DNA of 64,000 bases from Streptomyces sp. NBC_01353. GTDB taxonomy: Bacteria; Actinomycetota; Actinomycetes; Streptomycetales; Streptomycetaceae. The number at the start of each line of letters is the position of its first letter. Within the stretch, counting starts at the first letter, position 1. A program made the translations under genes and the position numbers. The stretch is taken from positions 8,333,501-8,397,500 of the forward strand of contig NZ_CP108352.1 in NCBI RefSeq assembly GCF_036237275.1. Direction: 5' to 3'. A model generated the notes under the pieces. That model made no database searches, had not been told where the DNA came from, and was given only the letters and a program-made list of their open reading frames with translations. Positions 1 to 16,510 of this stretch are shown piece after piece.

Positions 1-713
1 CGTGGCAGCCCCTTGGCGCGGGCGGTACGGATATACGGCTCCGCCATCGTCTCGATCATCGAACTGCGGCTCTGGCGCGCGTACATGGCGGCGTACAGGA
101 CGGCCAGTGCCAGCCAGGGCAGCAGCAGGTTCGACGCCCAGTCGAGCGGGTCGGAGCCGAAGGGGACGTACTGCGGATAGGGCAGCAGCCCGGCCACCCG
201 GATCAGCCCGTAGATGAGCATCACCGAGGTGAAGTAGACGGGCAGCGAGGCGGCGGCGACCGCGCCGACCATGAGGACGCGGTCGGTGAGGGAGTCCTTG
301 CGCAGGGCCGCGGTGACGCCCGCGGAGAGCCCCAGGAGAAGCCAGATCGCGGCGGAGCCCAGGGCGAGCGACGCGGAGACGGGCAGACGGTCGAGCAGCA
401 GGTCCCACACGCCCTGGCTGTTCTCGTACGAGTAGCCCAGGCACGGGAAGTCGCAGTGCAGGGCGTACTGGCCGCTGCCCATGGTGCGGCCGGTGAAGAT
501 CCCGGAGACGAACTCCGCGAATTGCCGCCACATCGGCTGGTCCAGGCCCATGTGGGCACGGATCGCCGCCAGGCGCTCCGTGCTGCACGACTTTCCGCAG
601 GCCGCGGCGGCGGGGTCGGAAGGCAGGACGTAGAAGATGGTGAAGGTGACGGCGGCGATGGCGATCAGGACGCCGACGACACCGAGCAGCCGGCGGCCGA
701 GGTAGAGGATCAC
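1..713 (-). CDS. Peptide ABC transporter permease (DppB-type), 3' end outside window
   Basis: This is an inner-membrane permease of a dipeptide/oligopeptide ABC importer and probably pairs with the DppC-type permease just upstream. The GTG start at 713 is followed by a first membrane helix, then the DppB-type long periplasmic region, then several further helices. Near the window edge a segment reading YIRTARAKGLP is the EAA loop that contacts the ATPase. The reading frame runs off the window at base 1, so the C-terminus is missing. The start overlaps the stop of the upstream permease by 4 bases (GTGA), which indicates translational coupling. Family assignment is firm. The substrate is inferred from the neighbours to be collagen-derived, hydroxyproline-containing peptides. 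The ATPase genes expected for such a system are not in view and may follow outside the window. Confidence 0.88.
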   Translation of the reverse strand, partial: MILYLGRRLLGVVGVLIAIAAVTFTIFYVLPSDPAAAACGKSCSTERLAAIRAHMGLDQPMWRQFAEFVSGIFTGRTMGSGQYALHCDFPCLGYSYENSQGVWDLLLDRLPVSASLALGSAAIWLLLGLSAGVTAALRKDSLTDRVLMVGAVAAASLPVYFTSVMLIYGLIRVAGLLPYPQYVPFGSDPLDWASNLLLPWLALAVLYAAMYARQSRSSMIETMAEPYIRTARAKGLP

Positions 714-1636
714 GTACGGCTTCCTCTCGGGTCGAGGATGTCGCGCAGCGCGTCGCCGAGCAGGGTGAACGCGAGCACCGTGAGGAAGAGGCAGAGGCTC
801 GGGACGACGAAGTACATGGGGTCCGTGTCGTAGTAGGCGACGCTCTCGGCGATCATCTGACCCCAGGACGGGGTGGGCGGGCGGACCCCGACGCCCAGAT
901 AGCTGAGGGCCGCCTCGGTGGCGATCATCCCGGGGATGATCAGGGTCGTGTACGCGATGACCGGCCCGGCGACACCCGGGAGGATGTCCCGGGTCAGGAT
1001 CCGCCAGGGGCCCGAGCCGCCGACGCGGGCGGCGTCTACGTACTCGCGGTGCTTGAGCGAGAGGGTCTGGCCGCGTACGACGCGGGCGATCCCGGGCCAG
1101 CCGAAGAGGCCGATGACGGCCGTCATCAGCACGATCCTGTTGACATCCCGCGCCACCGACATCATCGCGATCATGAAGATGAGGGAAGGAAAGGACATCG
1201 TGAGGTCCATCAGCCGGGAGAGCACGGTGTCGGTGCGGCCGCCGAAATAGCCGGCCGCGATCCCGGCCGCGGTCCCCGCGACGACGACGATCGCTGTCGC
1301 GGAGAAGGCGATGAGGAGGGAGACCTGGGCGCCGTGCACGACGCGGGCGAACAGGTCGCGGCCGGTGACGGGCTCAACGCCGAGCCAGTGCTCGGCCGAG
1401 ACGCCACCGAGCGGGCCGATGGGCTGGCCGCCCAGGTACGGATCGACGGCGCTCTTGTCGAACTCCTCGGGCCCCCAGCCGCCCAGCGCGCTGAGCAGCG
1501 GGGCGGCCACGGCCATGAGCGCGAAGAGCGCGACGACGACGAGGGAGATCTTCACGGAGGGTCGGCGGTGCAGTTCCGCGCGGGCGAGCTGCCAGGGACC
1601 GCTGCCCTGATGCAAGGGCGGGGAGGTGGTGGACAT
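710..1636 (-). CDS. Peptide ABC transporter permease (DppC-type)
   Basis: This is the second membrane permease of the peptide importer, about 308 residues. I chose the ATG at 1636 (MSTTSPP) because the DppC-type N-terminal segment follows it directly and a GAGGG sequence lies about 10 bases upstream, overlapping the end of the binding-protein gene. The protein has an N-terminal cytoplasmic tail, one helix, an extracytoplasmic loop with the DppC-typical WLG motif and GRDLFAR segment, then a five-helix permease core. An EAA-like loop (YVDAARVGG) lies in the second half. The gene sits 13 bases after the solute-binding protein and overlaps the next permease by 4 bases, so the three form one minus-strand operon. 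Longer upstream starts in this frame only give proline/arginine-rich shadow sequence. Confidence 0.9.
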   Translation of the reverse strand: MSTTSPPLHQGSGPWQLARAELHRRPSVKISLVVVALFALMAVAAPLLSALGGWGPEEFDKSAVDPYLGGQPIGPLGGVSAEHWLGVEPVTGRDLFARVVHGAQVSLLIAFSATAIVVVAGTAAGIAAGYFGGRTDTVLSRLMDLTMSFPSLIFMIAMMSVARDVNRIVLMTAVIGLFGWPGIARVVRGQTLSLKHREYVDAARVGGSGPWRILTRDILPGVAGPVIAYTTLIIPGMIATEAALSYLGVGVRPPTPSWGQMIAESVAYYDTDPMYFVVPSLCLFLTVLAFTLLGDALRDILDPRGSRT

Positions 1637-1649
1637 GAGTGAGTGACCC

Positions 1650-3395
1650 TCAGTTTTCGCTCTTGGAGGGGTCCTTGAGGCCGATCGTCGCGTAGTCGAT
1701 CTGTCCGCCGAAGGAGGTGTGGCCGAAGGCGCCGGCGATGTTCGTGCCGAGCACCAGAGGCCAGCGCTCGATGATGGTGGGGGCGGTCGGAGCCTTGGCG
1801 AGGATCTCGCCGTCCAGGTCCTGCCAGGCCTTGTTGGCCTGTGCGGCATCCGTCATGGCGGCGATCTCGTCCATCCGCTTCATGGTCGCCTGGTCGCGGA
1901 ACAGCGAGTGGTTGCCGGAGTTGCCCTTCTCCTTGATGAAGCGGCCGTCGAAGACGAAGGGCAGGAACGTGGAGCCGGAGGGGTAGTCCGGGCACCAGCC
2001 CGTGAAGACGAGGTCGGTACGGTTCCTGGTGTCGCCGACGGTGTCGTAGAAGGCCGACGGGTCCACGGTCTCGATGGTGACCTTGATCCCCGCCCGGCCG
2101 AGGGACTGCTGGATCGCCTCGCCGATTCCCTTGTCGCCGTTGGAGACGGTGATGCTGGTGGCGAAGCCGTCCGATTTGCCGGCCTCCTTGAGTAGCTGCT
2201 TGGCCTTCTCCACGTCACCGGTGACGGGGATGTTCAGGGCGTCCGGCTGCTTGCCCCCGAAGAGCGAGCCCGGCATGAGGGCCGTGGACAGGTCGTTGAG
2301 CGCCGGACCGCCGTTCGCGGTCAGGATGGCCTCGCGGTCGAGGGCGTACTGCACCGCCTGGCGGACCTTGATGTTGTCGAACGGCGCACGGCCGGTGTGC
2401 ATCTGCACCATGTCGTGGCAGTTGCTGGACTCGGCCAGAAGACGTGCCTTCACCTCGGGCTTGGTAAGCACCTTGGGCGTGCTCTCGGGGCGCAGCTTGC
2501 CCCAGGGCACGGCGGAGGCGTCGGCGCCCGTACCGGCGATGACCCGGTCGTCGATCTGGTTCTGCTTGAGCCCCATCGTCACGACGATCTTGTCGGGGTA
2601 AGCCTTGCGCACGCTGTCGGTCTTCGGGTCCCAGTGCGGGTTGCGCACCAGCACCATCTGCTTGTCCCGGGCGTACGACTCGATCTTGTAAGGGCCCGAG
2701 GAGAAGGGGCGGCTGTCGTACCGGGGGCCGTTGTCCTTCGACTTCGGCACCGGGGCGAAGGTCGGCAGCACGGCGGCGTAGGGGAACTCGGCGAAGGGCT
2801 TGCGCAGTTCGAAGACGATCGTGTGGTCGTCGGGGGTCCTGATGGAGTCGAGGTGCTTTCCCTGGGCCGGCCCCTGGTAACCCTCGACGCCGGCGAGGTA
2901 GCGAGCCGCGTAGTCGGGGCCACCGGTGAGGTCGGGCGAGAAGGACCGCTCCACGTTGTACTTGACGTCCTGAGCGGTGATGGGCGAGCCGTCCTCGTAC
3001 TTCAGCCCCTTCTTGAGCCTGAACGTCCAGGTCTTGGTGCCGTTGGAGGGGGTGCCGAGGTCCTCGGCGAGGTCGGGGGTCAGCTCCCCGCCCTTGGCGC
3101 CGGGCTCCGCCTTGTACGTCACGAGGGTGCGGTAGAGCAGCCGCGTGCCGAAGTCCATCTCGTTCATGACCCAGTTGCGGGCGGGGTCGAGGTGCTGGAA
3201 GTCCTGGTTGGACAGGACGGTCAGGGTGCCGCCCTTCTGCGGAGTCCCGCCGACCACCGCGCCGTTGTTGGCGGTCGCGGGGTTCTTGCGGTCCCGACCG
3301 TCGTCGGTCTTCTTTCCTCCGGAACACCCGGCAACGCCGAGGGTGAGGGTCGCCGCCAGGGCGGTGGCCAGGGTGGTGCAGGTGCGCTTGTCCAT
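1650..3395 (-). CDS. Peptide ABC transporter substrate-binding lipoprotein (SBP family 5)
   Basis: This is an extracytoplasmic binding protein of the peptide importer, 581 residues. Residues 1-24 form a lipoprotein signal ending in the lipobox GVAGC, so Cys24 should be lipidated and anchored to the outer membrane face. The body matches SBP family 5 (DppA/OppA): it has NWVMNEMDF and LLYRTL near the N-terminus, TWTFRLKKGLKYEDGSPI in the first lobe, and the VRQAVQYALDREAI segment in the middle. A GGAG lies about 9 bases before the ATG. The gene is transcribed divergently from the D-hydroxyproline dehydrogenase genes. The roughly 200-base intergenic region holds two copies of the locus motif. Hydroxyprolyl peptides as ligand are an inference from context. 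Confidence 0.92.
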   Translation of the reverse strand: MDKRTCTTLATALAATLTLGVAGCSGGKKTDDGRDRKNPATANNGAVVGGTPQKGGTLTVLSNQDFQHLDPARNWVMNEMDFGTRLLYRTLVTYKAEPGAKGGELTPDLAEDLGTPSNGTKTWTFRLKKGLKYEDGSPITAQDVKYNVERSFSPDLTGGPDYAARYLAGVEGYQGPAQGKHLDSIRTPDDHTIVFELRKPFAEFPYAAVLPTFAPVPKSKDNGPRYDSRPFSSGPYKIESYARDKQMVLVRNPHWDPKTDSVRKAYPDKIVVTMGLKQNQIDDRVIAGTGADASAVPWGKLRPESTPKVLTKPEVKARLLAESSNCHDMVQMHTGRAPFDNIKVRQAVQYALDREAILTANGGPALNDLSTALMPGSLFGGKQPDALNIPVTGDVEKAKQLLKEAGKSDGFATSITVSNGDKGIGEAIQQSLGRAGIKVTIETVDPSAFYDTVGDTRNRTDLVFTGWCPDYPSGSTFLPFVFDGRFIKEKGNSGNHSLFRDQATMKRMDEIAAMTDAAQANKAWQDLDGEILAKAPTAPTIIERWPLVLGTNIAGAFGHTSFGGQIDYATIGLKDPSKSEN

Positions 3396-3441
3396 CAGTG
3401 GTCACTCCGAGAGCAGTCGGACAGCCGATGGCGGCTGGAAT

Positions 3442-3473
3442 GTGACCTGTAACATAGTAATGTGAAATTGCAC
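3442..3473. promoter_or_regulatory. Operator-like sites in front of the binding-protein operon
   Basis: GTGAAATTGCAC at 3462-3473 is a near-palindrome (GTG-n-AATT-n-CAC). It is the best match to a motif that recurs at the other promoters of the locus. A weaker copy, GTGACCTGTAAC at 3442-3453, begins 20 bases away, about two helical turns. Both lie 47-80 bases upstream of the binding-protein start, where a repressor or activator could act. The GntR/FCD protein encoded at 10112-10792 is the obvious candidate. Seen: the repeats. Inferred: the regulator. Confidence 0.55.
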
Positions 3474-3561
3474 TGACAAGGCGTCGGAAGGTCCGTTACG
3501 CATCCGTGTCCGAGAAGGTGCGGGGTGCGAGGGAGGGTGGGGGGAACCCCGGCCGAGGTCC

Positions 3562-3592
3562 TTGGCAAGCTCGGTGCCATGTGAAATATTAC
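3562..3592 (+). promoter_or_regulatory. Candidate promoter and operator for a leaderless dehydrogenase transcript
   Basis: TTGGCA at 3562-3567, a 17-base spacer and AATATT at 3585-3590 resemble a sigma-70 type promoter. The expected transcription start falls at or next to the GTG at 3597, and no ribosome-binding site precedes that GTG. The motif copy GTGAAATATTAC (3581-3592) lies over the -10 element, as expected for a repressor site. This is a pattern call only. Confidence 0.45.
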
Positions 3593-3596
3593 TGCC

Positions 3597-4754
3597 GTGC
3601 TCACGAGAAATGCCTCGGATGTCATCGTCGTCGGCGCCGGAATCGTCGGCGCCGCTTGCGCCCACTACGCCGCCCACGCCGGCCTCACCGTCACCGTTGT
3701 CGATCGCGGGCCCGTCGCCGGCGGCACAACGGGTGCGGGTGAGGGGAACCTCCTGGTCTCCGACAAGGAACCGGGCCCCGAACTCGAACTCGCCCTGCTG
3801 TCCACCGGGTTGTGGCAGGAGCTGGCAGACCTGCTCCCGCCGCGGATCGAGTACGAACCCAAGGGCGGCCTCGTCGTCGCCTCGAGCGAGCCCGGGATGC
3901 GCGCCCTGCGCGACTTCGCGGCCCGCCAGGAGAAGGCGGGCGTCACGGCGCAGGAGGTCCCGGGGGACCGGCTCCACGACCTGGAGCCCCATCTCGCCCC
4001 CGGACTGACGGGCGGCTTCCGCTATCCCCAGGACGCCCAGGTCATGCCCGCCCATGCCGCCGCGCACCTGCTGCGCACGGGCGGCGACCGAATCCGCCTG
4101 CGACTCGGGGAGGAGGTCACCGGCCTGCTGACCGGTGCGACCGGAGAGATCCGCGGAGTGCGCACCGCGACCGGCGACATCCACGCCCCGTACGTGGTCA
4201 ACGCCGCCGGGACCTGGGGCGGCGCACTCGCCGACCTCGCGGGGGTGCACCTTCCGGTGCTGCCTCGGCGGGGTTTCGTCCTCGTCACCGAACCGCTGCC
4301 GCGCGTCGTGCGCCACAAGGTGTACGCCGCCGACTACGTGGCGGACGTGGCCTCCGGCTCCGCCGCACTGCAGACCTCGGCGGTCGTCGAGGGCACTCCG
4401 GCGGGCCCGGTCCTGATCGGCGCCAGCCGGGAAAGGGTCGGCTTCGACCGGACGCTCTCCACCGAGGTCCTGCGCCGCCTCGCCGCAGGGGCCACCGCGC
4501 TGTTCCCGGTCCTCGGCACCGTCCGGGCGATGCGGACCTACCCGGGCTTCCGCCCGTACCTGCCGGATCACCTGCCGGCGATCGGACCCGACCCGCGCGT
4601 CCCCGGACTGCTGCACGCCTGCGGTCACGAAGGGGCGGGGATCGGACTGGCGCCGGTGACCGGGCTGATCGTCGCGGCGTGCCTGACCGGCGGTGAAATG
4701 CCCCTCGACATCCACCCGTTCAGACCCGAGCGGTTCGCTCCGCCCGAGCCCTGA
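3597..4754 (+). CDS. FAD-dependent oxidoreductase, catalytic subunit of D-hydroxyproline dehydrogenase (LhpB-like)
   Basis: This is a DadA/DAO-family flavoenzyme of 385 residues. The FAD dinucleotide motif GAGIVGAACA begins about residue 13. The segment GTTGAGEGN near residue 45 and the C-terminal GHEGAGIGLAP motif close the flavin site. In the known hydroxyproline pathway D-hydroxyproline is oxidised to pyrroline-4-hydroxy-2-carboxylate by an enzyme built from this kind of subunit plus the small [2Fe-2S] and FAD/BFD subunits encoded next door. The GTG at 3597 is the only start that leaves the Rossmann motif intact, yet it has no Shine-Dalgarno, so the message may be leaderless. Activity on sarcosine or another D-amino acid cannot be excluded, but the epimerase, deaminase and semialdehyde dehydrogenase downstream make D-hydroxyproline the best fit. 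Confidence 0.85.
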   Translation: MLTRNASDVIVVGAGIVGAACAHYAAHAGLTVTVVDRGPVAGGTTGAGEGNLLVSDKEPGPELELALLSTGLWQELADLLPPRIEYEPKGGLVVASSEPGMRALRDFAARQEKAGVTAQEVPGDRLHDLEPHLAPGLTGGFRYPQDAQVMPAHAAAHLLRTGGDRIRLRLGEEVTGLLTGATGEIRGVRTATGDIHAPYVVNAAGTWGGALADLAGVHLPVLPRRGFVLVTEPLPRVVRHKVYAADYVADVASGSAALQTSAVVEGTPAGPVLIGASRERVGFDRTLSTEVLRRLAAGATALFPVLGTVRAMRTYPGFRPYLPDHLPAIGPDPRVPGLLHACGHEGAGIGLAPVTGLIVAACLTGGEMPLDIHPFRPERFAPPEP

Positions 4755-4820: not shown

Positions 4821-4839
4821 CGTCACGAGAGGAGGGCCC

Positions 4840-5154
4840 GTGGCCCGCACCCCCACCGACCTGGTCGGAGCACAGCCCGATCCGCCGTTCGAGATCACCT
4901 TCGACGGCCGCAGCGTCACCGCACTGCCCGGCCAGTCTGTCGCCGCCGCCCTGTGGGGTGCCGGCATCCTGGCCTGGCGAACCACCCGCGATGGCGGCCG
5001 GCCACGCGGCGCGTTCTGCGGCATCGGCCAGTGCTACGACTGCCTCGCCACCGTCAACGGAGAGCCCAACCGGCGGGCCTGCCTGGTCCCCGCCCACCCC
5101 GGGGACGCGATCACCACCCAGGAAGGGCACGGCCATGACCGCCTCGGTGTCTGA
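4840..5154 (+). CDS. Small [2Fe-2S] subunit of D-hydroxyproline dehydrogenase (HcnA/LhpF-like)
   Basis: This is a ferredoxin-fold protein of 104 residues. Residues 15-45 match the start of the fer2 fold (FEITFDGRSVTALPGQSVAA). The cysteines in FCGIGQCYDC and RRAC, around residues 59-80, are the cluster ligands of the HcnA/SoxA-alpha type N-terminal domain. Such small subunits pass electrons between the FAD subunit and the larger FAD/BFD subunit in heteromeric D-hydroxyproline, opine and cyanide-forming dehydrogenases. It starts at GTG 4840 after a strong GAGAGGAGG site. Its 3' end overlaps the next gene by 20 bases, supporting a fixed subunit ratio. The first cysteine of a canonical plant-type site is absent, as is usual in this subfamily. 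Confidence 0.85.
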   Translation: MARTPTDLVGAQPDPPFEITFDGRSVTALPGQSVAAALWGAGILAWRTTRDGGRPRGAFCGIGQCYDCLATVNGEPNRRACLVPAHPGDAITTQEGHGHDRLGV

Positions 5155-6616
5155 ACCATCGGGACTTTACGACCTCGTGGTCGTCGGCGCCGGCTCGGCC
5201 GGGCTCGCCGGTGCCGTCATCGCCTCCGAACTCGGCCTGTCCGTGGCCCTGGTGGATGCCTCCACCCAGTCCGGCGGGCAGTTCTACCGGCATCCGGCGC
5301 CCGCTCTGGGCGCGGTGCGACCCGAGGCCCTGCACCACGACTGGTCCACCTTCTCCAACCTGCGACGGCGCCTGGGAGCAAGCGGCATCGCCCACCTCAC
5401 CGGGCATCACGTGTGGTCCCTCGCGAAGGAAGCCGACGAGACGTGGACGGTGCACGCCGTCACCGGCGCCGACGGCACTGCGAAACGGCCTGTCCGGATA
5501 CGGGCCCGGACGCTGCTGCTCGCCACGGGGGCGTACGAGCGTCAACTGCCCTTTCCCGGCTGGACCCTGCCCGGTGTCGTGGGCGCCGCGGGAGCGCAGG
5601 CCATGCTCAAGTCCGGTCTCGTGCTGCCCGGCCGGCGCATCGTCGTGGCCGGCAGTGGGCCCCTCCTGCTCGCCGTCGCCGCGTCGCTCGCCGCAGCCGG
5701 TGCGCGAGTGCCGACCGTGGTCGAGGCAGCCGGCTATCTGCGGTACGCCCGTACGCCCCGAGCTCTCGTGGCCAACCCGCAGAAAGCTGCCGAAGCTCTG
5801 GTCCACGGCGCCGCACTGCTCAGGCACCGGGTGCGCGTACGGCTGCGCAGTGCGGTCACCGAGGTGCACGGCACCGACAGGGTGGAGGCCGTCACCGTCA
5901 CCCGCCTCGACCGCGACTGGCGGCCCGTGCCGGGAACGGGCCGGCGGATCGCGTGCGACGCGCTCGCCGTCGGCCACGGGCTGGTCCCTCAGATCGAGCT
6001 GGCCACCGCCCTCGGCTGCGCCACCCGGCCGCTGCCCGACTGCACCCTGGGCCTCGCCCTGGACGGCCTCCAGGAGACCTCGGTGCGTGGCCTGTGGGCA
6101 GCGGGTGAGACCGGAGGCGTGGGCGGAGCCGAACTCGCCTGGACCGAGGGTGAGTTGGCAGGGCGGGCGGTCGTCGCGCGGCTCCTGGGCCGCCGTTCCG
6201 ACGCAGGGCGGATCGCTGGACTCCAGCGCCGTCGGGACCGGATGCGCGCCTTCGCCGACGTGATGGCCTCGGCCCACGCTCCCGGCCCCGGATGGCCCGT
6301 GTGGCTGACCGACGACACGGACGTGTGCCGCTGCGAAGAGGTCACCGTGGGGTGTGTCCGCGAGGCGGTCGCCGATCTCGGGGCGCGCGACGCGCGGACC
6401 GTCAAACTCCTCACCCGGGCCGGCATGGGCTGGTGCCAGGGGCGGATGTGCGGGACAGCCGTGGCCTGCCTCGCGGCACGCGACGGTGTCGCCGAACCGC
6501 CCTCCGAGCGCCGCCCGTTCGCCGTCCCCGTCTCGCTGTCGACGCTCGCCGCACTCGACGAGCCCGCCGAACCGGGGGGCGTGGAGGCCGAAGCCTCCTC
6601 GATCGAAGGCCCTTAG
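5135..6616 (+). CDS. FAD/NAD(P)-binding and BFD-type [2Fe-2S] subunit of D-hydroxyproline dehydrogenase (HcnB/LhpE-like)
   Basis: This is a pyridine-nucleotide-disulphide-oxidoreductase fold protein of about 493 residues. It has an N-terminal FAD motif GAGSAGLAGAVIASELG near residue 17, a middle ATGAYERQLPFPGW segment, a second nucleotide site (VAGSGPLLLAVAASLAAAGA), and a C-terminal BFD-like cluster domain with CRCEE and CQGRMC ligands. The ATG at 5135 is preceded by AGGAAGGG and overlaps the ferredoxin-like subunit gene. Longer starts in the same frame duplicate coding sequence of that gene in the wrong frame. With the two upstream genes it forms the likely electron-transfer half of the D-hydroxyproline dehydrogenase. 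After it comes a 78-base gap with a motif copy. Confidence 0.87.
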   Translation: MTASVSEPSGLYDLVVVGAGSAGLAGAVIASELGLSVALVDASTQSGGQFYRHPAPALGAVRPEALHHDWSTFSNLRRRLGASGIAHLTGHHVWSLAKEADETWTVHAVTGADGTAKRPVRIRARTLLLATGAYERQLPFPGWTLPGVVGAAGAQAMLKSGLVLPGRRIVVAGSGPLLLAVAASLAAAGARVPTVVEAAGYLRYARTPRALVANPQKAAEALVHGAALLRHRVRVRLRSAVTEVHGTDRVEAVTVTRLDRDWRPVPGTGRRIACDALAVGHGLVPQIELATALGCATRPLPDCTLGLALDGLQETSVRGLWAAGETGGVGGAELAWTEGELAGRAVVARLLGRRSDAGRIAGLQRRRDRMRAFADVMASAHAPGPGWPVWLTDDTDVCRCEEVTVGCVREAVADLGARDARTVKLLTRAGMGWCQGRMCGTAVACLAARDGVAEPPSERRPFAVPVSLSTLAALDEPAEPGGVEAEASSIEGP

Positions 6617-6660: not shown

Positions 6661-6672
6661 ATAAAATGTCAC
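6661..6672 (+). promoter_or_regulatory. Operator-like motif upstream of the deaminase gene
   Basis: ATAAAATGTCAC is the reverse complement of GTGACATTTTAT, the most diverged copy of the locus motif. It lies 23 bases before the ATG at 6695 and just upstream of a GAAAGG ribosome-binding site. It suggests a second regulated start inside the plus-strand operon. Confidence 0.45.
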
Positions 6673-8679: not shown

Positions 8680-10064
8680 CCACCGCCGCCGTTCCCGACA
8701 TCACCTCTCGTAACCCGGCCGCCCCGGCCGACGTCCTCGTGCGGATCCCAGCCCCCGGCGCCTTCGCGACGGCCGACGCCGTCGAACGGGCCCGTGCCGC
8801 GCAGCCCGGCTGGCTGCTCGCCGGGGCGGCTGCCCGCTCCTCAGCCCTCGGCGCGGTCGCCGCCGCCCTCCACGACGCGGCCGACGAACTGGCGGCGCTC
8901 GCCGTACGCGAGGTGGGCAAGCCGCTTGCCGAGGCCAGAGCCGAGGTCGCGCGCGCGGCCGCGATCTGGCGCTACTACGCCCAAGCACCCTTCGAGCCCA
9001 CCGGCGCCGTCCACGAGCCCGCGGCCGGCCCGGGGCTGCTCCTGACCCGGCGTCGCCCGCACGGCGTGGCAGGGCTCATCACACCCTGGAACTTCCCCTT
9101 CGCGATCCCGAGCTGGAAGGCCGCCCCGGCGCTCGCGGTCGGCAACACGGTCGTCCTCAAGCCAGCCCCCGAGGCCACCGCGTGCGCCCAGCGCCTGGCC
9201 GAGATCGTCCAACAGGCCGTCCCGGCAGCGGTGTTCACCGTTCTCCCCGGAGGGGCGACCGAGGGCAACGCGCTCGTCTCCGCCGCCGACGTCGTCTCCT
9301 TCACCGGCTCCACCCCCGTCGGCCGGGCCGTGGCCGGCGCCGCGACCGCCCGGGGCGTCCCGGTCCAGGCCGAGATGGGCGGCCTGAACGCGGCGCTCGT
9401 CCTGCCGGACGCCGACATCGAGCAGGCGGCGGGCCACATCGCAGCCTCCATCGCCGGCTACGCGGGCCAGAAGTGCACGGCCACCAGCCGCGTCATCGCC
9501 GTCGGCACCGCCCTCGCCCCCCTGCGCGAGGCCCTCTCCGAAGCACTGCGGGCCGTCCCCGTCGGCGACCCGGCCGACGCGGTCACGGTGTGCGGGCCGC
9601 TCATCCACGAGGGCGCACGAGATCAGGTCGTCGACGCCTGGAAGGGACTGCCCACGCTCGCGGGCGGCACCATGCCCGAGGGGCCCGGATGGTTCGCGGA
9701 ACCGACCCTGGTCGAGAAGGTTTCCCCGGGACACCGGCTGCTGCGCGAAGAGGTCTTCGGCCCCGTCGCGGCCCTGATGCCCGCCGACGATCTCGCCCAC
9801 GCTGTACGGATCACCAATTCCGTACCGTACGGCCTGGTCACTTCGGTCCACACGGCCGACGTGAACACGGCCCTGCAGGGGCTCGACCTGCTCGACACCG
9901 GGATGATCCGGATCAACGCCCCGTCCACCGGCGTCGATTTCCACCTGCCGTTCGGCGGCTCCAAGGCGTCCAGCCACGGGCCGCGAGAACAGGGACGGGC
10001 CGCTCTGGAGTTCTACACCTCCGGCCGGACGTACACCGTGGCACCCGCGGGCCGCGCGACGTGA
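8676..10064 (+). CDS. Aldehyde dehydrogenase, likely 2-ketoglutarate semialdehyde dehydrogenase
   Basis: This is an NAD(P)-dependent aldehyde dehydrogenase of 462 residues. It shows PWNFPFAIP and KPAPEAT for cofactor binding, FTGSTPVG, the general-base region EMGGLN (a variant of ELGGK), the catalytic cysteine in GQKCTATSR, and EEVFGPV. The likely reaction is oxidation of 2-oxoglutarate semialdehyde to 2-oxoglutarate, the last step of hydroxyproline breakdown. It starts with GTG at 8676 in a GTGA overlap with the epimerase gene. A copy of the locus motif overlaps its stop codon, immediately before the regulator gene. Confidence 0.9.
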   Translation: MTTAAVPDITSRNPAAPADVLVRIPAPGAFATADAVERARAAQPGWLLAGAAARSSALGAVAAALHDAADELAALAVREVGKPLAEARAEVARAAAIWRYYAQAPFEPTGAVHEPAAGPGLLLTRRRPHGVAGLITPWNFPFAIPSWKAAPALAVGNTVVLKPAPEATACAQRLAEIVQQAVPAAVFTVLPGGATEGNALVSAADVVSFTGSTPVGRAVAGAATARGVPVQAEMGGLNAALVLPDADIEQAAGHIAASIAGYAGQKCTATSRVIAVGTALAPLREALSEALRAVPVGDPADAVTVCGPLIHEGARDQVVDAWKGLPTLAGGTMPEGPGWFAEPTLVEKVSPGHRLLREEVFGPVAALMPADDLAHAVRITNSVPYGLVTSVHTADVNTALQGLDLLDTGMIRINAPSTGVDFHLPFGGSKASSHGPREQGRAALEFYTSGRTYTVAPAGRAT

Positions 10065-10072
10065 CATCGTAC
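10061..10072 (+). promoter_or_regulatory. Operator-like motif in front of the GntR gene
   Basis: GTGACATCGTAC differs from the consensus GTGAMATTGYAC at one position. It overlaps the aldehyde dehydrogenase stop and lies 40 bases before the GntR start, a position suited to autoregulation. Confidence 0.5.
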
Positions 10073-10111
10073 GGTGGTGATGCGTACCGGAACGAAGGGA
10101 TCACCACCGTC

Positions 10112-10792
10112 ATGGGGCACCTGACCCGCCGCGACCTCAATGCAACCCGCGAGCGGCTGCGCGACCAGGTCGCCCATGCTCTGCGAGCCGCCCTGATCTC
10201 GGGCGAGCTGCGGCCGGGGGCGGTGTACTCGGCGCCGACGCTGGCCGAGGACTTCGGCATCTCCGCCACCCCGGTCCGTGAGGCGATGCTCGACCTGGCC
10301 CGAGAGGGTCTGGTCGAGCCCGTCCGCAACAAGGGGTTCCGGGTCACCGCGGTCGACGAACGCGACCTCGACCAGTACACCGAGATCCGCGCGCTCATCG
10401 AGATCCCGATGGTCGTCCGGATCACCCGCACCGCAGCCCGTGAGGATCTCGAGGCGCTGCGGCCGGTCGCCGTTGAGATCGTGCGCGCGGCCCGTGAGCA
10501 CGATCTCATCGGCTATCTGGAGGCCGACCGGCGGTTCCACCTCACGCTGCTCGGCCTCGCGGGCAACGAACGCCTCGTCGAGACCGTCGGTGACCTGCGC
10601 AAACGGTCCCGCCTGTACGGACTCACCGCCCTGGACGAGCGTGGCGACCTCATCCCGTCCGCCGAGGAGCACCTGGAGCTGCTCGACCTGATGCTCGCCG
10701 GGGACGCCAAGGGCGCGGAGAAGTGCATGACCAGGCACCTGGGGCATGTCCGGTCCCTGTGGGCCAAGGGTGGTCGGCAGGGCAGGGCATAG
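10112..10792 (+). CDS. GntR-family regulator with FCD domain, candidate controller of the locus
   Basis: This is a cytoplasmic DNA-binding regulator of about 226 residues. An N-terminal winged helix spans residues 10-75, with LRPGAVYSAPTLAEDFGIS and TPVREAMLDLAREGLV typical of GntR. The C-terminal all-helical FCD domain contains the metal/ligand residues in DRRFHLTLLGLAGN and EEHLELLDLM and the late H in TRHLGHV. The ATG at 10112 has GAAGGGA upstream. It is the last gene of the hydroxyproline operon, and FCD regulators commonly bind GTG/CAC-type palindromes such as the motif found around it. A hydroxyproline-pathway intermediate is the likely effector, by inference. Confidence 0.88.
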   Translation: MGHLTRRDLNATRERLRDQVAHALRAALISGELRPGAVYSAPTLAEDFGISATPVREAMLDLAREGLVEPVRNKGFRVTAVDERDLDQYTEIRALIEIPMVVRITRTAAREDLEALRPVAVEIVRAAREHDLIGYLEADRRFHLTLLGLAGNERLVETVGDLRKRSRLYGLTALDERGDLIPSAEEHLELLDLMLAGDAKGAEKCMTRHLGHVRSLWAKGGRQGRA

Positions 10793-10850: not shown

Positions 10851-10862
10851 GTGCAATGTCAC
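10851..10862 (+). promoter_or_regulatory. Operator-like motif before the aminopeptidase-M6 protease unit
   Basis: GTGCAATGTCAC (reverse complement GTGACATTGCAC) is a full match to the consensus. It lies 34 bases before the aminopeptidase ATG and ties the peptidase unit to the catabolic operon. Confidence 0.55.
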
Positions 10863-10895
10863 ACATCACCCTCTTTCCGGCCGTGAAAGGGATCC

Positions 10896-12161
10896 ATGAA
10901 CCCCGCGTACGCGACCGTCGACCACACCTTCACGGTTCCCCTGGACCACGAGGCCCCCGACGGCCCCACCATCGAGATCTTCGCCCGCGAGGTCGCCGAT
11001 CCGGCCCGCGCGGGCGAGCAACTGCCCTGGCTGCTCTATCTCCAGGGCGGCCCGGGCGGCAAGTCCCCCCGTCCGTCATCCGGTTCGCCCAGCTGGCTGG
11101 CCCAAGCCTTGAAGACCCACCGGGTGCTGTTCCTCGACCAGCGCGGCACCGGCCGCTCCACCCCGGTCACCGCGCGCTCCGCCGCCCGGTTCGCCTCGCC
11201 GGACCACCTCGCCGCGCATCTGGTCCACTTCCGCGCCGACGCCATCGTCGCCGACGCGGAACTGATCCGCCGCCGACTCTGCGGGGACACCCCCTGGGAG
11301 ACGCTCGGGCAGAGCTACGGTGGCTTCATCACCCTCACCTACCTCTCCCGGGCCCCCGAGGGCCTGCGGGCCTGCTACGTCACCGGTGGCCTGCCCGGCC
11401 TCACCGCCACCGCCGACGACGTGTACATCCGCACCTACCCCCGCGTCCGCGACCGCGTCCTCGACTTCTACGCCCGCTACCCCGAGGACGCTCCCCGCCT
11501 GCGGAAGATCGCCGACCTCCTCGCGGCCGGCGACATCCGCCTGCCGGACGGGGACCGGCTCACCCCGCACCGCCTGCGCAGCCTCGGACTCGCGCTCGGC
11601 ATGGGCGACGGATTCGAGCGCGTTCACTGGCTGCTCGACGAATCTCTCGGCACGGACGGCGAGTTGACCGACACCTTCCGCCACCAGGTGATGGTCCTCA
11701 CCGGCTTCACCGACAACCCGCTGTTCGCCGTCATGCAGGAGACGCTGTACGGGCAGGGCGCCGGCCCGACCGGCTGGGCGGCCTCCCGGACGCTCGCCGG
11801 CTTCCCTGAGTTCGGCGAGGACGCGGACCCCCTCCTGCTCACCGGAGAGATGATCTACCCCTGGATGTTCCGGGAGATCACGGGCCTGCGCCCCTTCGCG
11901 GACGCCGCCGACCTACTGGCCGCGCGCACCGACTGGCCGCCCCTGTACGACCCGCACCGTCTCGCCGCCAACGAGGTCCCGCTCGCAGCGATCGTCTACC
12001 ACGACGACATGTACGTCGACGCGGGCCTGTCCCTGCGCACCGCGCGCGAGGTCGGCGCCACCCGCGTCTGGGTCACCAACGAGTGGGAGCACGACGGCGT
12101 CTCCGCCTCCGGCGGCCGCGTCCTCGCCCGCCTGATGGACCTGGCTGCCGGCCGCGCGTAG
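10896..12161 (+). CDS. Prolyl aminopeptidase-like alpha/beta hydrolase (S33 family)
   Basis: This is a cytoplasmic serine peptidase of 421 residues with no signal peptide. LQGGPGG near residue 50 is the S33 oxyanion motif (HGGPG type), DQRGTGRS follows, the nucleophile elbow is GQSYGGF near residue 145, and a late WEHDGV supplies the histidine. Length and order of motifs match the larger type of proline iminopeptidase, which removes N-terminal proline or hydroxyproline from peptides. That fits release of imino acids after peptide uptake. The ATG at 10896 follows GAAAGGGA. The M6 protease gene follows after 49 bases, so the two probably share a transcript. Confidence 0.85.
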   Translation: MNPAYATVDHTFTVPLDHEAPDGPTIEIFAREVADPARAGEQLPWLLYLQGGPGGKSPRPSSGSPSWLAQALKTHRVLFLDQRGTGRSTPVTARSAARFASPDHLAAHLVHFRADAIVADAELIRRRLCGDTPWETLGQSYGGFITLTYLSRAPEGLRACYVTGGLPGLTATADDVYIRTYPRVRDRVLDFYARYPEDAPRLRKIADLLAAGDIRLPDGDRLTPHRLRSLGLALGMGDGFERVHWLLDESLGTDGELTDTFRHQVMVLTGFTDNPLFAVMQETLYGQGAGPTGWAASRTLAGFPEFGEDADPLLLTGEMIYPWMFREITGLRPFADAADLLAARTDWPPLYDPHRLAANEVPLAAIVYHDDMYVDAGLSLRTAREVGATRVWVTNEWEHDGVSASGGRVLARLMDLAAGRA

Positions 12162-12210
12162 CCCCTCGTTCCTGCTCCGATCCCTGCCCTCCGCCTCCGA
12201 CGGGAGAGAC

Positions 12211-13398
12211 ATGCCCGCCCTGCCACGCCGCCTGCGCACCCTCGCTGCGGCCCTCGTCCTCGCCTCCTGCCTGGCCACTCCTCCCGCGGCGAACGCGTCC
12301 GCTCCGGCCGCCCCGGCCGCTCCCGCCGTCGACTGCGCGCTGCCCGGCAGGACCGGCTGGACCGACGAGGGCCACGACACGGACCGCGCCCAGTTCCAGC
12401 CGTCCACCGGAACTCGCCCTGTCCTGACTCTGTTCGTCGACTTCCCCGACGCGCCGGCCGGCGAAGCCACCGAGCCGTACGCCGCCCAACTCGCCCCCGC
12501 CGCCGACTGGATGCGGACGGCCAGCTACGGCCGCTCCCGCCTCGCCATCAGCTCGCTGCACCGGTGGATCCGCATGCCCGCGGACTCGACCTCGTACGGA
12601 TTCACTCGCGGCCTCACCTTCGAAACCCACGAGAAGTACGTGCGCGACGCCATCGCGGCCGCCGACCCGTACGCGGACCTCTCCCGCCACGACATGGTCT
12701 ACATCGTCCCCACCCGGGCGGCGGCCGCGATCCCGTTCTCCCCGACCTACCTCTACGACCCCGCCACGCCGGGCGTGAGCGCCGACGGTACGCGACTGAA
12801 GTGGGCCGTGACCTTCGGTCAGGACATGTGGCGCTGGGGCCACAAGGTCGTCGCCCACGAGACCGGTCACACCTTCGGCCTGCCGGACCTGTACTCCTTC
12901 ACCGGTGCCACCCACCAGTACGCAGGTGGCTGGGACGTCATGGGCAACATCGCGGGGCCCGCCCCGCAGTACCTCGGCTGGCACTCGTGGAAGCTGGGCT
13001 GGACCCGTGACGCCCAGGTCGCCTGCGTCTCGGGGCTCGGGCAGCGCACCGTACGGCTGACTCCCGTGGAACGCCCTGGCGGCACCAAGATCGCCGTACT
13101 GCGCACCGGCGAGACCACGGCGTACGTCGCCGAGTCCCGCCGCGCCGAGGGCAACGACCGGTCCGCCTGCTCGACCGGTGTCCTCATCTACCGGATCGAC
13201 TCCGCGACCCCGACTGGCGAGGGCCCGGTCCGGATCATGAACGGCAACCCGGACACGACTCCGCCCGTCGGTTGCACTGCGCTCGACCTCGGGGCGTACA
13301 CACCGGGCCGGACCTTCACCGACCCGGACACCGGAGTCCGCATCGACGTCCTCGCGGGCGGCCCGGCCGGGGACGTGGTCAGGCTCAGCCGATCCTGA
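12211..13398 (+). CDS. Secreted M6-family metalloprotease
   Basis: This is an exported zinc protease of 395 residues. Residues 1-33 form a Sec-type signal (RRLRT, hydrophobic core, PPAANASA). The zinc site HETGHTFGLPD near residue 216 has the HExxHxxGxxD form of immune-inhibitor-A-like M6 proteases. The conserved GGWDVMG follows. No C-terminal binding domain is apparent. Its cognate targets are unknown; inferred from context, it would trim collagen or gelatin fragments. A GGGAGAG site lies 3-9 bases before the ATG. The 3' end abuts the remnant of a GlxA-like regulator on the other strand. Confidence 0.85.
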   Translation: MPALPRRLRTLAAALVLASCLATPPAANASAPAAPAAPAVDCALPGRTGWTDEGHDTDRAQFQPSTGTRPVLTLFVDFPDAPAGEATEPYAAQLAPAADWMRTASYGRSRLAISSLHRWIRMPADSTSYGFTRGLTFETHEKYVRDAIAAADPYADLSRHDMVYIVPTRAAAAIPFSPTYLYDPATPGVSADGTRLKWAVTFGQDMWRWGHKVVAHETGHTFGLPDLYSFTGATHQYAGGWDVMGNIAGPAPQYLGWHSWKLGWTRDAQVACVSGLGQRTVRLTPVERPGGTKIAVLRTGETTAYVAESRRAEGNDRSACSTGVLIYRIDSATPTGEGPVRIMNGNPDTTPPVGCTALDLGAYTPGRTFTDPDTGVRIDVLAGGPAGDVVRLSRS

Positions 13399-13660: not shown

Positions 13661-13709
13661 CGCGAGTCATCCGCATGCGGTCGCGGGTTGGCGCCCCACT
13701 CAGATAGGG

Positions 13710-14105
13710 GACGCAAGGGGCGCACTACAGGCGGATCTCCAAGACCCTGCACATCGTGAGCCTGGCCGACGAGCGCGGATACCGCCTACAAACCAAGGTG
13801 CAGGCCGATCTTCAGGAGGGCCGCCACTTCCTCGCGCGGAAGATCTCCACGGCAAACGGGCAGTTGTACCAGCGCTTCCAGGACGGCATAGAGGACCGGA
13901 TCGGCGCCCTCAGCCTGGTCCTCAACGCCCTCGTACGCTTCAGCACCAGGTACATGGGCGCCGCGGTCACGCAGTTGCGCGCGAGCGGTTTCGACGTCCG
14001 CGAAGAGGATGTGGCCCGTCTCCCGCCGTGCCTGCAGCATCACATCAACATGCTCGGCCGGTACTCGTTCCGGCTCCCCGATCTGCCCGAATGGTCATGC
14101 CCTCG
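13710..14105 (+). pseudogene. C-terminal remnant of a Tn3-family transposase
   Basis: The frame through HYRRISKTLHIVSLADERGY, then LQEGRHFLARKI, then VLNALVRFSTRYMGAAVTQL and HHINMLGRYSF, is the C-terminal end of Tn3-family TnpA proteins. Nothing of the other 800-odd residues remains and no 38-bp inverted repeat was recognised. The remnant lies between the M6 protease and collagenase genes and may mark a past insertion or rearrangement there. Confidence 0.75.
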
Positions 14106-14323
14106 GCGTGGTGCGGCAGGAGCCGGGTCCCGTACCCATATCGCTGTCGTACCACCGGGATTGCTCGCCCGCGCCACCCGCGCGGTCCGGGGGCGGAATC
14201 CGCGCACCAGAGCGGGGATGGATGGGCACCGGCTCCGCGGATCAAGGCTCCGACAGGACCCCGCTCTGACGGTTCATCAGCTTCTTCTTTTGCTTGCAAT
14301 CCTCTTTCACTGCCATGTGAACT

Positions 14324-14335
14324 GTGAAATTGTAC
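14324..14335 (+). promoter_or_regulatory. Operator-like motif upstream of the collagenase gene
   Basis: GTGAAATTGTAC matches the consensus fully and lies 121 bases before the collagenase ATG. It sits inside a wider imperfect dyad, TGTGA (14316-14320) and TCACA (14338-14342). The intact site beyond the transposon debris supports co-regulation of collagenase with hydroxyproline catabolism. Confidence 0.55.
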
Positions 14336-14456
14336 GGTCACACTTTCCGCGAGCATGACAGCTCCGTGAGTGCTCAACTTCCGTTGCCATCACGGTCCGC
14401 ACCCCCCACCGCCGTGCCCCCACGCACGGCTGCCGACCGGCCTGGAGGCCATCGCT

Positions 14457-16430
14457 ATGCGCAAACCCCCCACATTCAAGAAACTCGCCCAACTGCTGAT
14501 ACCTACCGTGGCCGCAGCAGGCCTGGGGCTCACCATGCTCGCCCCCCATGGCGTGGCGACCCCGGCCGACGTCGGGGCACCCAAGCCGACACCGAGGTCG
14601 GCCCCCGCCCCACAGCCCGCCGCCGCCACCGTGCTTGCGGCCGATCTCGTACCCGGACACGCCGCCGACCCCGCGCGATCGGCCGCGAAGACCTCGAACC
14701 CCGCGCAACGCGCTCCGTTCCCCGCGGCCCAGAACGCCGCAGAGCGCAAGCAGGCCGGCTCTGCGGCGAAGGCCGCGGCGGACTGCAACGTCAGCGACTT
14801 CACCTCGAAGACCGGCGCAGCGCTGGTCGAGCAGATCAAGCAGTCGGAAAACACCTGCATCAACGCGATGTTCAACGTGACCGGTGAGGACTCCAAGGCC
14901 CTCTTCCGCGAGGAACAGATGGTCACGGTGGCGAACGCACTCAAGGATGTCGCGACCAACTACCCCGGGGACAACAGCACTTCCGCAACCCAGGTGGTGC
15001 TGTACCTGCGCGCCGGCTACTACATCCAGTACAACCAGCCGGAGAACGTCGGCGAATACGGCCCGACGCTGAAGAGCGCCATTCAGGGCGCCCTGGACGC
15101 CTTCTTCGGCTCGTCCCACGCCTTCGACGTCACCGAGGCCAACGGAGAAACCCTCGCCGAGACGGTCACCCTGATCGACAGCTCCGGAGAGAACGCCCGC
15201 TACCTCGGCGTGGTCAAGCGTCTGCAGAAGGACTACAACTCGTCGTACGACCAGTTCTACGGGATGCTCGCGGCGGTCAACAACACCTACACCGTGCTCT
15301 TCCGTGGCCACCAACTGCCGGAGTTCGTGGAAGCCGTGAAGGCGGACCCGAGCGTCCTCACCGGACTGCGTGACTTCGCCGTCGCCCACGACGATCTGCT
15401 CGGCACCGACAAGTCCTACCTGGCAAGCAACGCCGGACGCGAACTCGGCCGCTTCCTGCGGCACGCCGACCTCAAGGACACCGTCAAGCCGTTGGTCAAA
15501 GAGCTGCTCGGCCGCAGCGAGATCACTGGCCGCACCGCCCCGCTCTGGGTCGGCCTCGCCGAGATGACGAACGAGTTCGACAAGGAGAACTGCGCTGAGT
15601 ACGACACCTGTGACCTGCAGAACCGCGTGCGCGACGCCGTGTTGACGGTCAAGCACGCATGCGGTCCGAGTGCGAAGATCCTCGCGCAGGAGCTGACCGC
15701 GTCCGAACTGTCGGCCACGTGCGACAGCGTCCTCAAGCAGGACCCGGTCTTCCACGACATCGTCAAGGACAACGGCCCGGTCAAGGACGACAACAACGCC
15801 AGCATCGAGATCGTCGCCTTCAACTCCAGTACCGACTATAAGACCTACGCCGGTGTCGTCTTCGGCATCGACACCAACAACGGCGGCATGTACCTGGAGG
15901 GTGACCCGGCCGCTGAGGGCAACCAGCCGCGCTTCATCGCCTACGAGCAGCCGGCCCAGGACGGCGCCTTCCAGATCTGGAACCTCAATCACGAGTACAC
16001 CCACTACCTCGACGGCCGCTACGACATGTACGGCGACTTCACAGCCGGGCAGACCACCCCGACCGTGATGTGGATCGAGGGTTTCGCCGAGTACGTCTCC
16101 TACTCGTACCGCGGCATCACCTACGACAGGGCGATCGAGGAGGCGGGCAAGAACACCTACAAGCTCAGCCAGCTCTTCGGGACCACCTACGACAACGCCG
16201 ACACCACCCGTATCTACCAGTGGGGTTATCTGGGCGTCCGTTACATGCTCCAGTCGCACCCCGAGGACGTGGCCACCCTGCTCGGCCGCTACCGCGCAGG
16301 CGAGTACGACGCGGCGCACAGCCTGCTCCGCGACACCATCGGCACCAAGTACGACGCCGACTTCGCCGACTGGCTGAGCAAGTGCGCCGGCGGCGACTGC
16401 GGCCAACTGCCGGCCCGGAGCGGCCGGTGA
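14457..16430 (+). CDS. Secreted microbial collagenase (peptidase family M9)
   Basis: This is an exported zinc collagenase of about 657 residues. Residues 1-38 form a signal peptide (MRKPPTFKKLAQ then a hydrophobic core). An Ala/Pro-rich linker follows, then the helical activator-type region with its HQLPEFVEAV segment, then the peptidase domain. The zinc motif is HEYTH at residues 512-516, followed by YLDGRYD and the glutamate in WIEGFAEYVSY, matching M9 enzymes. The ATG at 14457 has GGAGG upstream; earlier ATGs give only shadow sequence. The protein ends soon after the peptidase domain, with no PKD or collagen-binding domain, so it is a minimal collagenase. The hydroxyproline pathway nearby would consume its main product. 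Confidence 0.92.
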   Translation: MRKPPTFKKLAQLLIPTVAAAGLGLTMLAPHGVATPADVGAPKPTPRSAPAPQPAAATVLAADLVPGHAADPARSAAKTSNPAQRAPFPAAQNAAERKQAGSAAKAAADCNVSDFTSKTGAALVEQIKQSENTCINAMFNVTGEDSKALFREEQMVTVANALKDVATNYPGDNSTSATQVVLYLRAGYYIQYNQPENVGEYGPTLKSAIQGALDAFFGSSHAFDVTEANGETLAETVTLIDSSGENARYLGVVKRLQKDYNSSYDQFYGMLAAVNNTYTVLFRGHQLPEFVEAVKADPSVLTGLRDFAVAHDDLLGTDKSYLASNAGRELGRFLRHADLKDTVKPLVKELLGRSEITGRTAPLWVGLAEMTNEFDKENCAEYDTCDLQNRVRDAVLTVKHACGPSAKILAQELTASELSATCDSVLKQDPVFHDIVKDNGPVKDDNNASIEIVAFNSSTDYKTYAGVVFGIDTNNGGMYLEGDPAAEGNQPRFIAYEQPAQDGAFQIWNLNHEYTHYLDGRYDMYGDFTAGQTTPTVMWIEGFAEYVSYSYRGITYDRAIEEAGKNTYKLSQLFGTTYDNADTTRIYQWGYLGVRYMLQSHPEDVATLLGRYRAGEYDAAHSLLRDTIGTKYDADFADWLSKCAGGDCGQLPARSGR

Positions 16431-16467
16431 CCGGGGCCTCGGGCACCGGCAAGAACTGAGCCAGGAG

Positions 16468-16510
16468 AGCCTGGTGTCCCGCGCATCGTTCGTGCGCGGG
16501 ACACCAGGCT
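16468..16510 (+). terminator. Strong stem-loop after the collagenase gene
   Basis: A perfect 18-bp inverted repeat (16468-16485 with 16493-16510) has a 7-base loop and starts 37 bases after the collagenase stop. It closes the collagen/hydroxyproline region. Confidence 0.85.

Follow-up and report, generated by a model that had tools for sequence, protein, structure and literature searches.

The window considered here is a stretch of 64,000 nucleotides from Streptomyces sp. NBC_01353, taken from an 8.47-Mb replicon (bases 8,333,501-8,397,500; total genome size 8.57 Mb), and its left end carries predicted genes for collagen digestion, peptide import and hydroxyproline catabolism. A sequence-only reading of this DNA had listed these genes and put forward a single system that would unite digestion, uptake and catabolism; all the genes listed are present, as judged from Pfam matches above cut-off, from an NCBIfam match in the case of the M6 protease and from the reading of motifs.

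On the reverse strand lie an OppB-type permease of a peptide importer (3..713, running out of the window; PF19300, PF00528), an OppC-type permease (710..1636; PF00528, PF12911) and a peptide-binding lipoprotein of the SBP_bac_5 family (hereafter SBP; 1650..3395; PF00496, 254 bits), whose VAGC lipobox was recognised by eye on the translation, as were the signal peptides. The importer becomes complete only with the OppD and OppF ATPases found just left of the window (L003), which fit oligopeptide/dipeptide ATPase models best, yet score below their exact-function cut-offs; the full Opp/Dpp set consists of one SBP_5 protein, two permeases and two ATPases. Beside OppF stands a second M6 gene (L003:16462-17694), 59% identical to that of the window.

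On the forward strand the three subunits claimed for a D-hydroxyproline dehydrogenase are borne out by their families: beta (DAO, 3597..4754; PF01266, 220 bits), gamma (Fer2_4, 4840..5154; PF13510, 90.7 bits) and alpha (Pyr_redox_2 with the [2Fe-2S] domain Fer2_BFD, 5135..6616; PF07992, PF04324). They are followed by a predicted deaminase of the DHDPS family (6695..7603; PF00701, 169 bits), by a Pro_racemase-family protein predicted to be a 4-hydroxyproline 2-epimerase (7675..8679; PF05544, 425 bits), in which both expected cysteines can be read within MCGHG and DRSPCGTG, and by an aldehyde dehydrogenase (8676..10064; PF00171, 411 bits), the predicted 2-oxoglutarate semialdehyde dehydrogenase. 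Directly 3′ of the latter gene is that of a GntR/FCD regulator of the FadR type (10112..10792; PF00392, PF07729), a predicted orthologue of HypR, judging from the gene context and from operators like those of S. coelicolor. An S33-like alpha/beta hydrolase, probably a cytoplasmic prolyl aminopeptidase (10896..12161; PF00561, Abhydrolase_1), a secreted M6-type metalloprotease (12211..13398; TIGR03296) and a secreted M9 collagenase reduced to its catalytic module (14457..16430; PF08453, 225 bits; PF01752, 395 bits) complete the locus, the last two being separated by ~1 kb. Their HETGH and HEYTH motifs were located at 12856 and 15990, in open frames of 420 and 686 amino acids, respectively; for the collagenase a longer frame, starting at 14370, is possible.

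The top NCBIfam models are NF010578 (4-hydroxyproline epimerase; 347.7 bits, just under the cut-off of 376) for the epimerase and NF042993 (364 bits, cut-off 770) for the aldehyde dehydrogenase. The M6 gene exceeds the cut-off of the NCBIfam M6 domain TIGR03296 (120 against 110.8 bits) and has no Pfam match over cut-off (PF05547, 16.9 vs 22). In the collagenase, HEYTH and Glu541/Glu545 are unvarying across 16 aligned sequences, and Pfam finds no C-terminal PKD or PPC domain, domains which are not required for M9 membership but occur in the relatives L066, L071 and L101 and at the C-terminus of S. coelicolor SCO5912. Lacking them, the window enzyme would be expected to attack collagen fibrils only weakly. 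As to the S33 gene, the alpha/beta hydrolase assignment (PF00561) holds, but the label of prolyl aminopeptidase given by the sequence-only reading is only probable because the scores against TIGR01249, NF045948 and TIGR01250 (~27 bits each) fall far below the cut-offs of these models (168-500 bits). The product, which has no signal peptide by eye and whose nearest solved relative is the plant protein AT3g61540 (8jgn, 366 bits), gives a poor predicted structure (mean pLDDT 45.2, pTM 0.43); it may still act like a prolyl aminopeptidase in spite of failing the models.

Conservation of the gene neighbourhood

Profile searches for Pro_racemase and M9 were carried out in 120 genomes, comprising that of the window and its relatives. 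Two M9 and eight Pro_racemase rows below cut-off were dropped before pairing, as were four short pieces of Pro_racemase genes that are broken in G019 and G031. A further fragment of the broken G019 gene stayed in, and a broken Pro_racemase therefore underlies one of the 23 near pairs described below (G019:C1). The searches yielded 75 M9 matches over cut-off in 55 genomes; for 23 of them, from 20 genomes, a Pro_racemase match is no more than 25 kb away, the chance of such proximity being ~0.6% per gene pair. All these pairs belong to the same genus (23 of 62 M9 matches, own genome included), none of the 13 M9 matches outside it being near a Pro_racemase. Two M9 classes are linked in this way, the relatives of the window enzyme in 8 of 35 cases within the genus and a divergent class in 15 of 27. 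The divergent enzymes (L065:12918-15230 and 14 further loci), which are ~25% identical to that of the window, display HEY[TV]H and EGTAEFF and match M9_N weakly. Furthermore, among 72 same-genus genomes both families occur in 45, Pro_racemase alone in 14, M9 alone in one and neither in 12, a co-occurrence with a Fisher p of 6e-6 when kinship is ignored.

The genome of the window contains two M9-hydroxyproline loci, one for each M9 class. The second, at 7.98 Mb (L065:8742-15230; C1:7,983,742-7,990,230), holds a class-2 M9, an epimerase, a deaminase and a regulator, the last three 83-87% identical to their counterparts; its DAO is only partial, the alpha and gamma dehydrogenase subunits were not found in the fetched stretch, and a HypR-like site lies between its genes and the divergent M9. 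This second locus is apparently decaying. Pro_racemase genes in fragments, by decay or assembly errors, were also encountered at L072:7761-8238, where the neighbouring hydroxyproline genes are still present, and at G031:C1:5593111-5594202.

Recurrent neighbours were sought in 43 sources (894 kb in all), namely 40 stretches fetched around M9 and Pro_racemase matches and three from the window's own genome (the window region, the flank to its left and the second locus), by mapping the window proteins and by clustering all called genes. The importer keeps the order SBP-PermC-PermB-OppD-OppF wherever the fetched stretch is long enough. An aminopeptidase P family of the M24 Xaa-Pro aminopeptidase type, one member of which was checked by Pfam, is present in 16 of the 43 sources. 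Three sources, the window, L090 and L095, have the S33 gene directly 3′ of the regulator, and in L094 a single gene separates the two. M6 is present in the window, in its left flank, in L084 (between OppF and a class-2 M9) and in L094 (after S33). In 13 sources a second Pro_racemase paralogue stands directly 5′ of a gene resembling pyrroline-2-carboxylate reductase (one reductase member checked). This paralogue (L078:4617-6535 and 12 further loci) is ~37% identical and has the Cys-Cys pair wherever the motif was read, with the exception of L071, in which the first motif was not caught; its identification as a trans-3-hydroxyproline dehydratase was considered and rejected, since it is without the Thr given for that type (PMC4364671). 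It may act on proline, on 3-hydroxyproline or on another substrate.

A wider view is afforded by 80 named M9 loci, the best 80 of 569 confirmed candidates and hence biased to relatives of the window enzyme, for which mostly 10 kb on each side were fetched (10 of the 80 stretches being shorter than 20 kb). The closest named relatives of the enzyme, at 88-89% identity, are from Streptomyces, and in this genus a regulator match accompanies M9 at 36 of 50 loci, at least two hydroxyproline genes at 24 and at least two importer genes at four. No regulator, hydroxyproline or importer gene was seen at the nine loci of Kitasatospora and Embleya; at the 21 of other actinomycetes the importer was found seven times, the regulator once and two hydroxyproline genes never, L187 having a single epimerase match at the very edge of its stretch. 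S33 (≥50% identity) or M6 (≥45%) was found at none of the 80 loci within the fetched stretches, and in a few relatives (L084, L090, L094, L095) one or the other stands beside the hydroxyproline operon or the importer. The search for the same gene order in other actinomycetes, suggested earlier, therefore returned partial sets, mainly in Streptomyces, but the full combination of S33, M6, M9 and hydroxyproline operon in the window only, at least among these best 80 of 569. An extensive partial set was seen in Streptomyces sp. SCUT-3 (L183), where ~20 kb carry an M24-like gene, regulator and importer matches, M9, the reductase, two Pro_racemases, the deaminase and the three dehydrogenase subunits.

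HypR-like operators and the importer clade

In S. coelicolor A3(2), HypR (SCO6294) represses the hydroxyproline operon SCO6289-6293 and the distant M9 collagenase gene SCO5912 (PMC6608401, 2019), and the seven sites published in that work, the genome of the window not being used, served to build a motif applied here with a threshold of 12.5 bits. Eight sites reach this threshold in the 64-kb window, all of them in the locus and seven intergenic, before SBP/DAO (three), the deaminase, S33 and M9 (two). The region between the importer and dehydrogenase operons contains two sites (3436..3472; 3436 forward, 14.4 bits, and 3462 reverse, 16.6 bits) as well as a weak one 17 nucleotides (nt) before the beta-subunit gene (3575..3585, forward, 12.9 bits); another precedes the deaminase gene (6662..6672, forward, 15.3 bits), and one is placed at the end of the aldehyde dehydrogenase gene, before that of the regulator (10061..10071, reverse, 15.0 bits). 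A perfect TGCAATGTCAC (10852..10862, forward, 21.0 bits), the only one of the genome, stands 39 nt before the S33 gene, and an inverted pair (14311..14334; 12.9 and 15.3 bits) precedes the collagenase gene. The second M6 gene, left of the window, has a 16.6-bit site of its own 70 nt upstream.

Over the 43 sources the motif finds 130 sites of at least 12.5 bits, as against 4-27 for 12 column-shuffled motifs. Counting the sources that have each gene, a site precedes SBP in 16 of 17, the regulator family in 23 of 27, M9 in 23 of 30, DAO in 18 of 31 and the deaminase in 15 of 31; before S33 it is found in the window only, L090, L094 and L095 having none at 12.5 bits. At the named M9 loci, three of which were left out for having less than 600 nt before the M9 match, a site occurs within 700 nt upstream of M9 in 44 of 77 cases, whereas 20 shuffled motifs gave 0-2 such cases and 20 sets of randomly chosen places 0-9. 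The distribution by group (Streptomyces 37/50, Kitasatospora and Embleya 4/9, other actinomycetes 3/21) indicates an operator of wide occurrence in Streptomyces which outside this genus is weak or missing. M9 genes that have no hydroxyproline operon in the fetched 20 kb still bear the site (L101-L104).

When the whole genome was scanned with the published 11-mer, allowing at most one mismatch, 34 sites were obtained, as against 11 for the reversed-pattern control, and four of the 34 fall in the two collagenase loci, where ~0.1 would be expected. A pattern drawn post hoc, TRMAATKTSAC, has 14 matches in the genome and none when reversed; seven are in the two loci and, of the other seven, two are in or beside 23S rRNA and four look, from their repeated spacing, like further rRNA copies. 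Co-location and operator counts taken together, the grouping exceeds chance.

Aligning 110 distinct intergenic contexts revealed that conservation runs past the 11 selecting bases (position 12 A 71%, 13 T 75%, 16 C 62%, 17 A 52%) and is near background at positions 23-27, bearing in mind that shared descent of these contexts inflates the apparent conservation. The operator, whose symmetry was termed unclear in 2019 (PMC6608401), reads as a 17-bp imperfect palindrome, TGCAATGT-S-ACATKNCA, that would fit a dimeric regulator. An operator variant, TGCAATGTGAC, was observed at L111:5497 (C1:7,115,497) between a regulator-like gene and a set of genes that, judged by eye, resemble those of a dehydrogenase, a kinase and an aldolase; nothing evident there points to collagen. 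As for the three other TGCMATGTSAC sites of the genome, no obvious regulon member was recognised among the neighbouring genes.

The importer was followed through its SBP. In all four non-Streptomyces genomes searched (Actinomadura, two Streptosporangium, Nonomuraea) the best match to the window SBP is the M9-adjacent gene, with 51-57% identity; the other SBPs of these genomes do not exceed 39%, save for one piece of 135 residues at 44%, and the next paralogue in the window's own genome is at 40%. In a quick tree 27 locus SBPs group in a single clade with a support of 100, separate from 33 paralogues of five genomes; the 27 include those of L090 and L094, two hydroxyproline loci whose fetched stretches show no M9. 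The clade occurs both at Streptomyces collagen/hydroxyproline loci and beside M9 in the three other genera. The adjacency of the best matches and the single clade point to a dedicated collagen-peptide importer. Around 37 peptide-binding-protein loci of five genomes (the 33 paralogues and four collagen-locus copies from other genera) the motif gave 5 sites in 162 kb. Two of the loci, in the Streptosporangium genomes, display a perfect TGCAATGTCAC near a different peptide-binding protein gene (L207:164 and L210:182), which is a possible further HypR target there.

Readings of the locus

Very probably, the locus represents a collagen- or gelatin-utilisation regulon governed by a GntR repressor of the HypR type, and the proposal of a single system of digestion, uptake and catabolism finds computational support because the neighbourhoods are conserved and HypR-type sites precede the gene sets of the locus. 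Repression by HypR would be lifted when hydroxyproline or a product derived from it is present; in S. coelicolor hydroxyproline does relieve it, whatever the true ligand may be (PMC6608401). The secreted M9 collagenase, probably aided by the M6 metalloproteases, would then cut collagen or gelatin to Gly-X-Y peptides, to be taken up by the dedicated Opp-type ABC importer, while cytoplasmic proline-specific peptidases, S33 here and the M24 Xaa-Pro aminopeptidase in many relatives, would release proline and hydroxyproline. Finally, the epimerase, the three-subunit D-hydroxyproline dehydrogenase, the DHDPS-family deaminase and the aldehyde dehydrogenase would convert trans-4-hydroxy-L-proline to 2-oxoglutarate. 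Other bacteria have been shown to carry out these four final conversions, for which Streptomyces provides support in the form of an epimerase deletion (PMC6608401) and of the induction seen in S. lividans (PMC4113996); the importer substrate, the roles of S33, M24 and M6 and the order of the steps we infer. In a broader form, to which we lean with less assurance, HypR would head a conserved actinomycete collagen-scavenging regulon having the dedicated collagen-peptide ABC importer at its core and would act in Streptomyces at the 17-bp palindrome, the importer staying beside M9 in several actinomycete genera even where no hydroxyproline operon is adjacent.

Several observations weigh against a regulon of this kind. 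The linkage between M9 and Pro_racemase must be optional because 52 of the 75 M9 matches, some of them on short contigs, are without it. Among the named loci, the 30 that are not from Streptomyces never show more than one hydroxyproline gene within reach, and only seven of them have a HypR-like site. Within the window the sites at 14311 and 3575 score low (12.9 bits), and the genes next to the genome's other three TGCMATGTSAC sites, as far as they can be read by eye, have no obvious connection with collagen. Moreover, three of the four SBP genes beside M9 in other genera have no site in the fetched stretch, whereas two Streptosporangium SBP paralogues have a perfect one nearby. The epimerase, the aldehyde dehydrogenase and S33 all remain under the curated cut-offs of the exact functional families, and at the "site 5" of the epimerase, which is Cys or Tyr in known HypE enzymes (PMC4364671), our own count places an Ile, which matches neither residue, and this site does not by itself tell hydroxyproline epimerase from proline racemase.

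This Ile, together with the fact that the nearest solved relative of the protein is AsProR (7pb3, 292 bits), might suggest a proline racemase acting in a pathway of D-proline metabolism. We regard this as very improbable, for the best NCBIfam model is that of 4-hydroxyproline epimerase, missed by little, deamination and semialdehyde oxidation are steps of the 4-hydroxyproline route (PMC4113996) and the S. coelicolor counterpart is required for growth on L-Hyp and not on L-proline (PMC6608401). A different origin of the hydroxyproline has also to be considered, in that the operon could serve free hydroxyproline or plant hydroxyproline-rich glycoproteins, with collagen being incidental; plant cell walls are indeed a known hydroxyproline source for soil bacteria (PMC6608401), and 14 of the 72 same-genus genomes have a Pro_racemase but no M9 match. 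Such an origin is nevertheless improbable in view of the linkage of both distant M9 classes and of the HypR-like site borne by M9 genes even where the fetched 20 kb contain no operon.

That the importer carries something other than collagen peptides, for instance unrelated oligopeptides, is unlikely, if somewhat less so: its nearest solved relative, at 305 bits, is the clavulanic-acid oligopeptide-binding protein 2 (2wok), but the SBP clade recurs at the Streptomyces loci and beside M9 in three other genera, and nearly all sources having SBP show HypR-like sites in front of it. More weight, though still that of a minority reading, is due to the possibility that the locus consists of adjacent but separately working modules, a HypR-run hydroxyproline operon with the collagenase and, merely sitting there, S33 and M6 as general proteases. 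The failure to find either, with the identity limits applied, at any of the 80 named M9 loci, the gap of ~1 kb between M6 and M9, the low scores of S33 against the prolyl-aminopeptidase models and the lack of a 12.5-bit site at the S33 genes of L090, L094 and L095 would all accord with it. It is opposed by the position of the genome's only perfect TGCAATGTCAC, 39 nt before S33, by the site which the second M6 gene, beside OppF, has of its own and by the recurrence of M6 in two relatives, flanked by OppF and a class-2 M9 in L084 and following S33 in L094. The single collagen-utilisation regulon remains the reading that we prefer.

Relation to known systems and biological meaning

The remark of the sequence-only reading that the combination had not been described is only partly right: the link between collagenase and hydroxyproline catabolism through HypR (2019) and a cluster of M9, peptidases, transporter and pathway genes in Colwellia (2021) are already known (PMC6608401, PMC7883544), and what seems new, in the literature searched, is the physically joined actinomycete version. 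With the S. coelicolor HypR regulon (PMC6608401) the locus shares the GntR/FCD repressor, the matching operator, the beta-gamma-alpha-deaminase-epimerase core and an M9 target, and from that organism HypR repression, binding in vitro, an effect of zinc, induction by L-Hyp, the need of the epimerase for growth on L-Hyp and a 2-oxoglutarate decarboxylase/dehydrogenase target of the SCO5281 type have been reported (PMC6608401). There, however, the collagenase and semialdehyde dehydrogenase genes are elsewhere on the chromosome, and the annotated targets in Table 2 of that paper include no peptide importer, S33, M6 or M24 but an ABC multidrug-type transporter, SCO6295. S. lividans TK24 has the same pathway genes, induced on trans-4-hydroxyproline (PMC4113996), although no collagenase is linked to them and the word collagen is absent from the text available of that study. 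Of the more distant systems, as recounted in PMC6608401, Pseudomonas aeruginosa Lhp and Sinorhizobium meliloti hyp share the epimerase and the deaminase and the former also the three-subunit dehydrogenase, but Pseudomonas has another regulator, LhpR, and Sinorhizobium another dehydrogenase, HypO; the available account mentions no collagenase gene in those clusters.

The ~21-kb cluster of Colwellia MAG BB5 (PMC7883544) resembles the window in having M9, a transporter, proline-specific peptidases, epimerase, D-hydroxyproline dehydrogenase, deaminase and semialdehyde dehydrogenase. It differs in being gammaproteobacterial, in relying on MFS and TonB-dependent uptake and not on an Opp ABC importer, in its cyclophilin peptidyl-prolyl isomerases (PPIases) and in having PutR and stringent starvation proteins in place of HypR (PMC7883544). 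Neither a secreted PPIase of the Colwellia type nor a TonB-dependent receptor is among the Pfam matches of the frames scanned over 3-20387, some small frames being unscanned. The right flank (17350-20387) encodes an MFS exporter like those of chloramphenicol-efflux families (below cut-off), a DUF1707 gene and a DUF4096 transposase of the IS4/5 type, and farther on (24781-35805) there is an exopolysaccharide-type cluster with DUF4012, a Wzz/tyrosine-kinase-like protein, UDP-glucose dehydrogenase, two sugar epimerases and a flippase-type protein.

As far as the open-access literature searched shows, the new elements are the physically joined actinomycete locus, the importer clade, the arrangement shared by two distant M9 classes, the palindromic operator and the importer, M24, S33 and M6 as predicted HypR targets; in the same literature no description was found of a collagen-peptide ABC transporter linked to a Streptomyces collagenase.

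Bacterial collagenases are discussed mainly as virulence factors or reagents. In the soil actinomycetes considered here they appear instead at one end of a nutritional route equipped with an importer, peptidases and a repressor of its own, and if the broader form of our reading is correct, many Streptomyces collagenases would be nutritional enzymes coupled to hydroxyproline catabolism. Such a route would offer a testable substrate for an orphan peptide importer, HypR as a handle on collagenase output and candidate enzymes acting on hydroxyproline peptides, and it suggests that animal collagens in soil may be a real source of carbon and nitrogen for Streptomyces.

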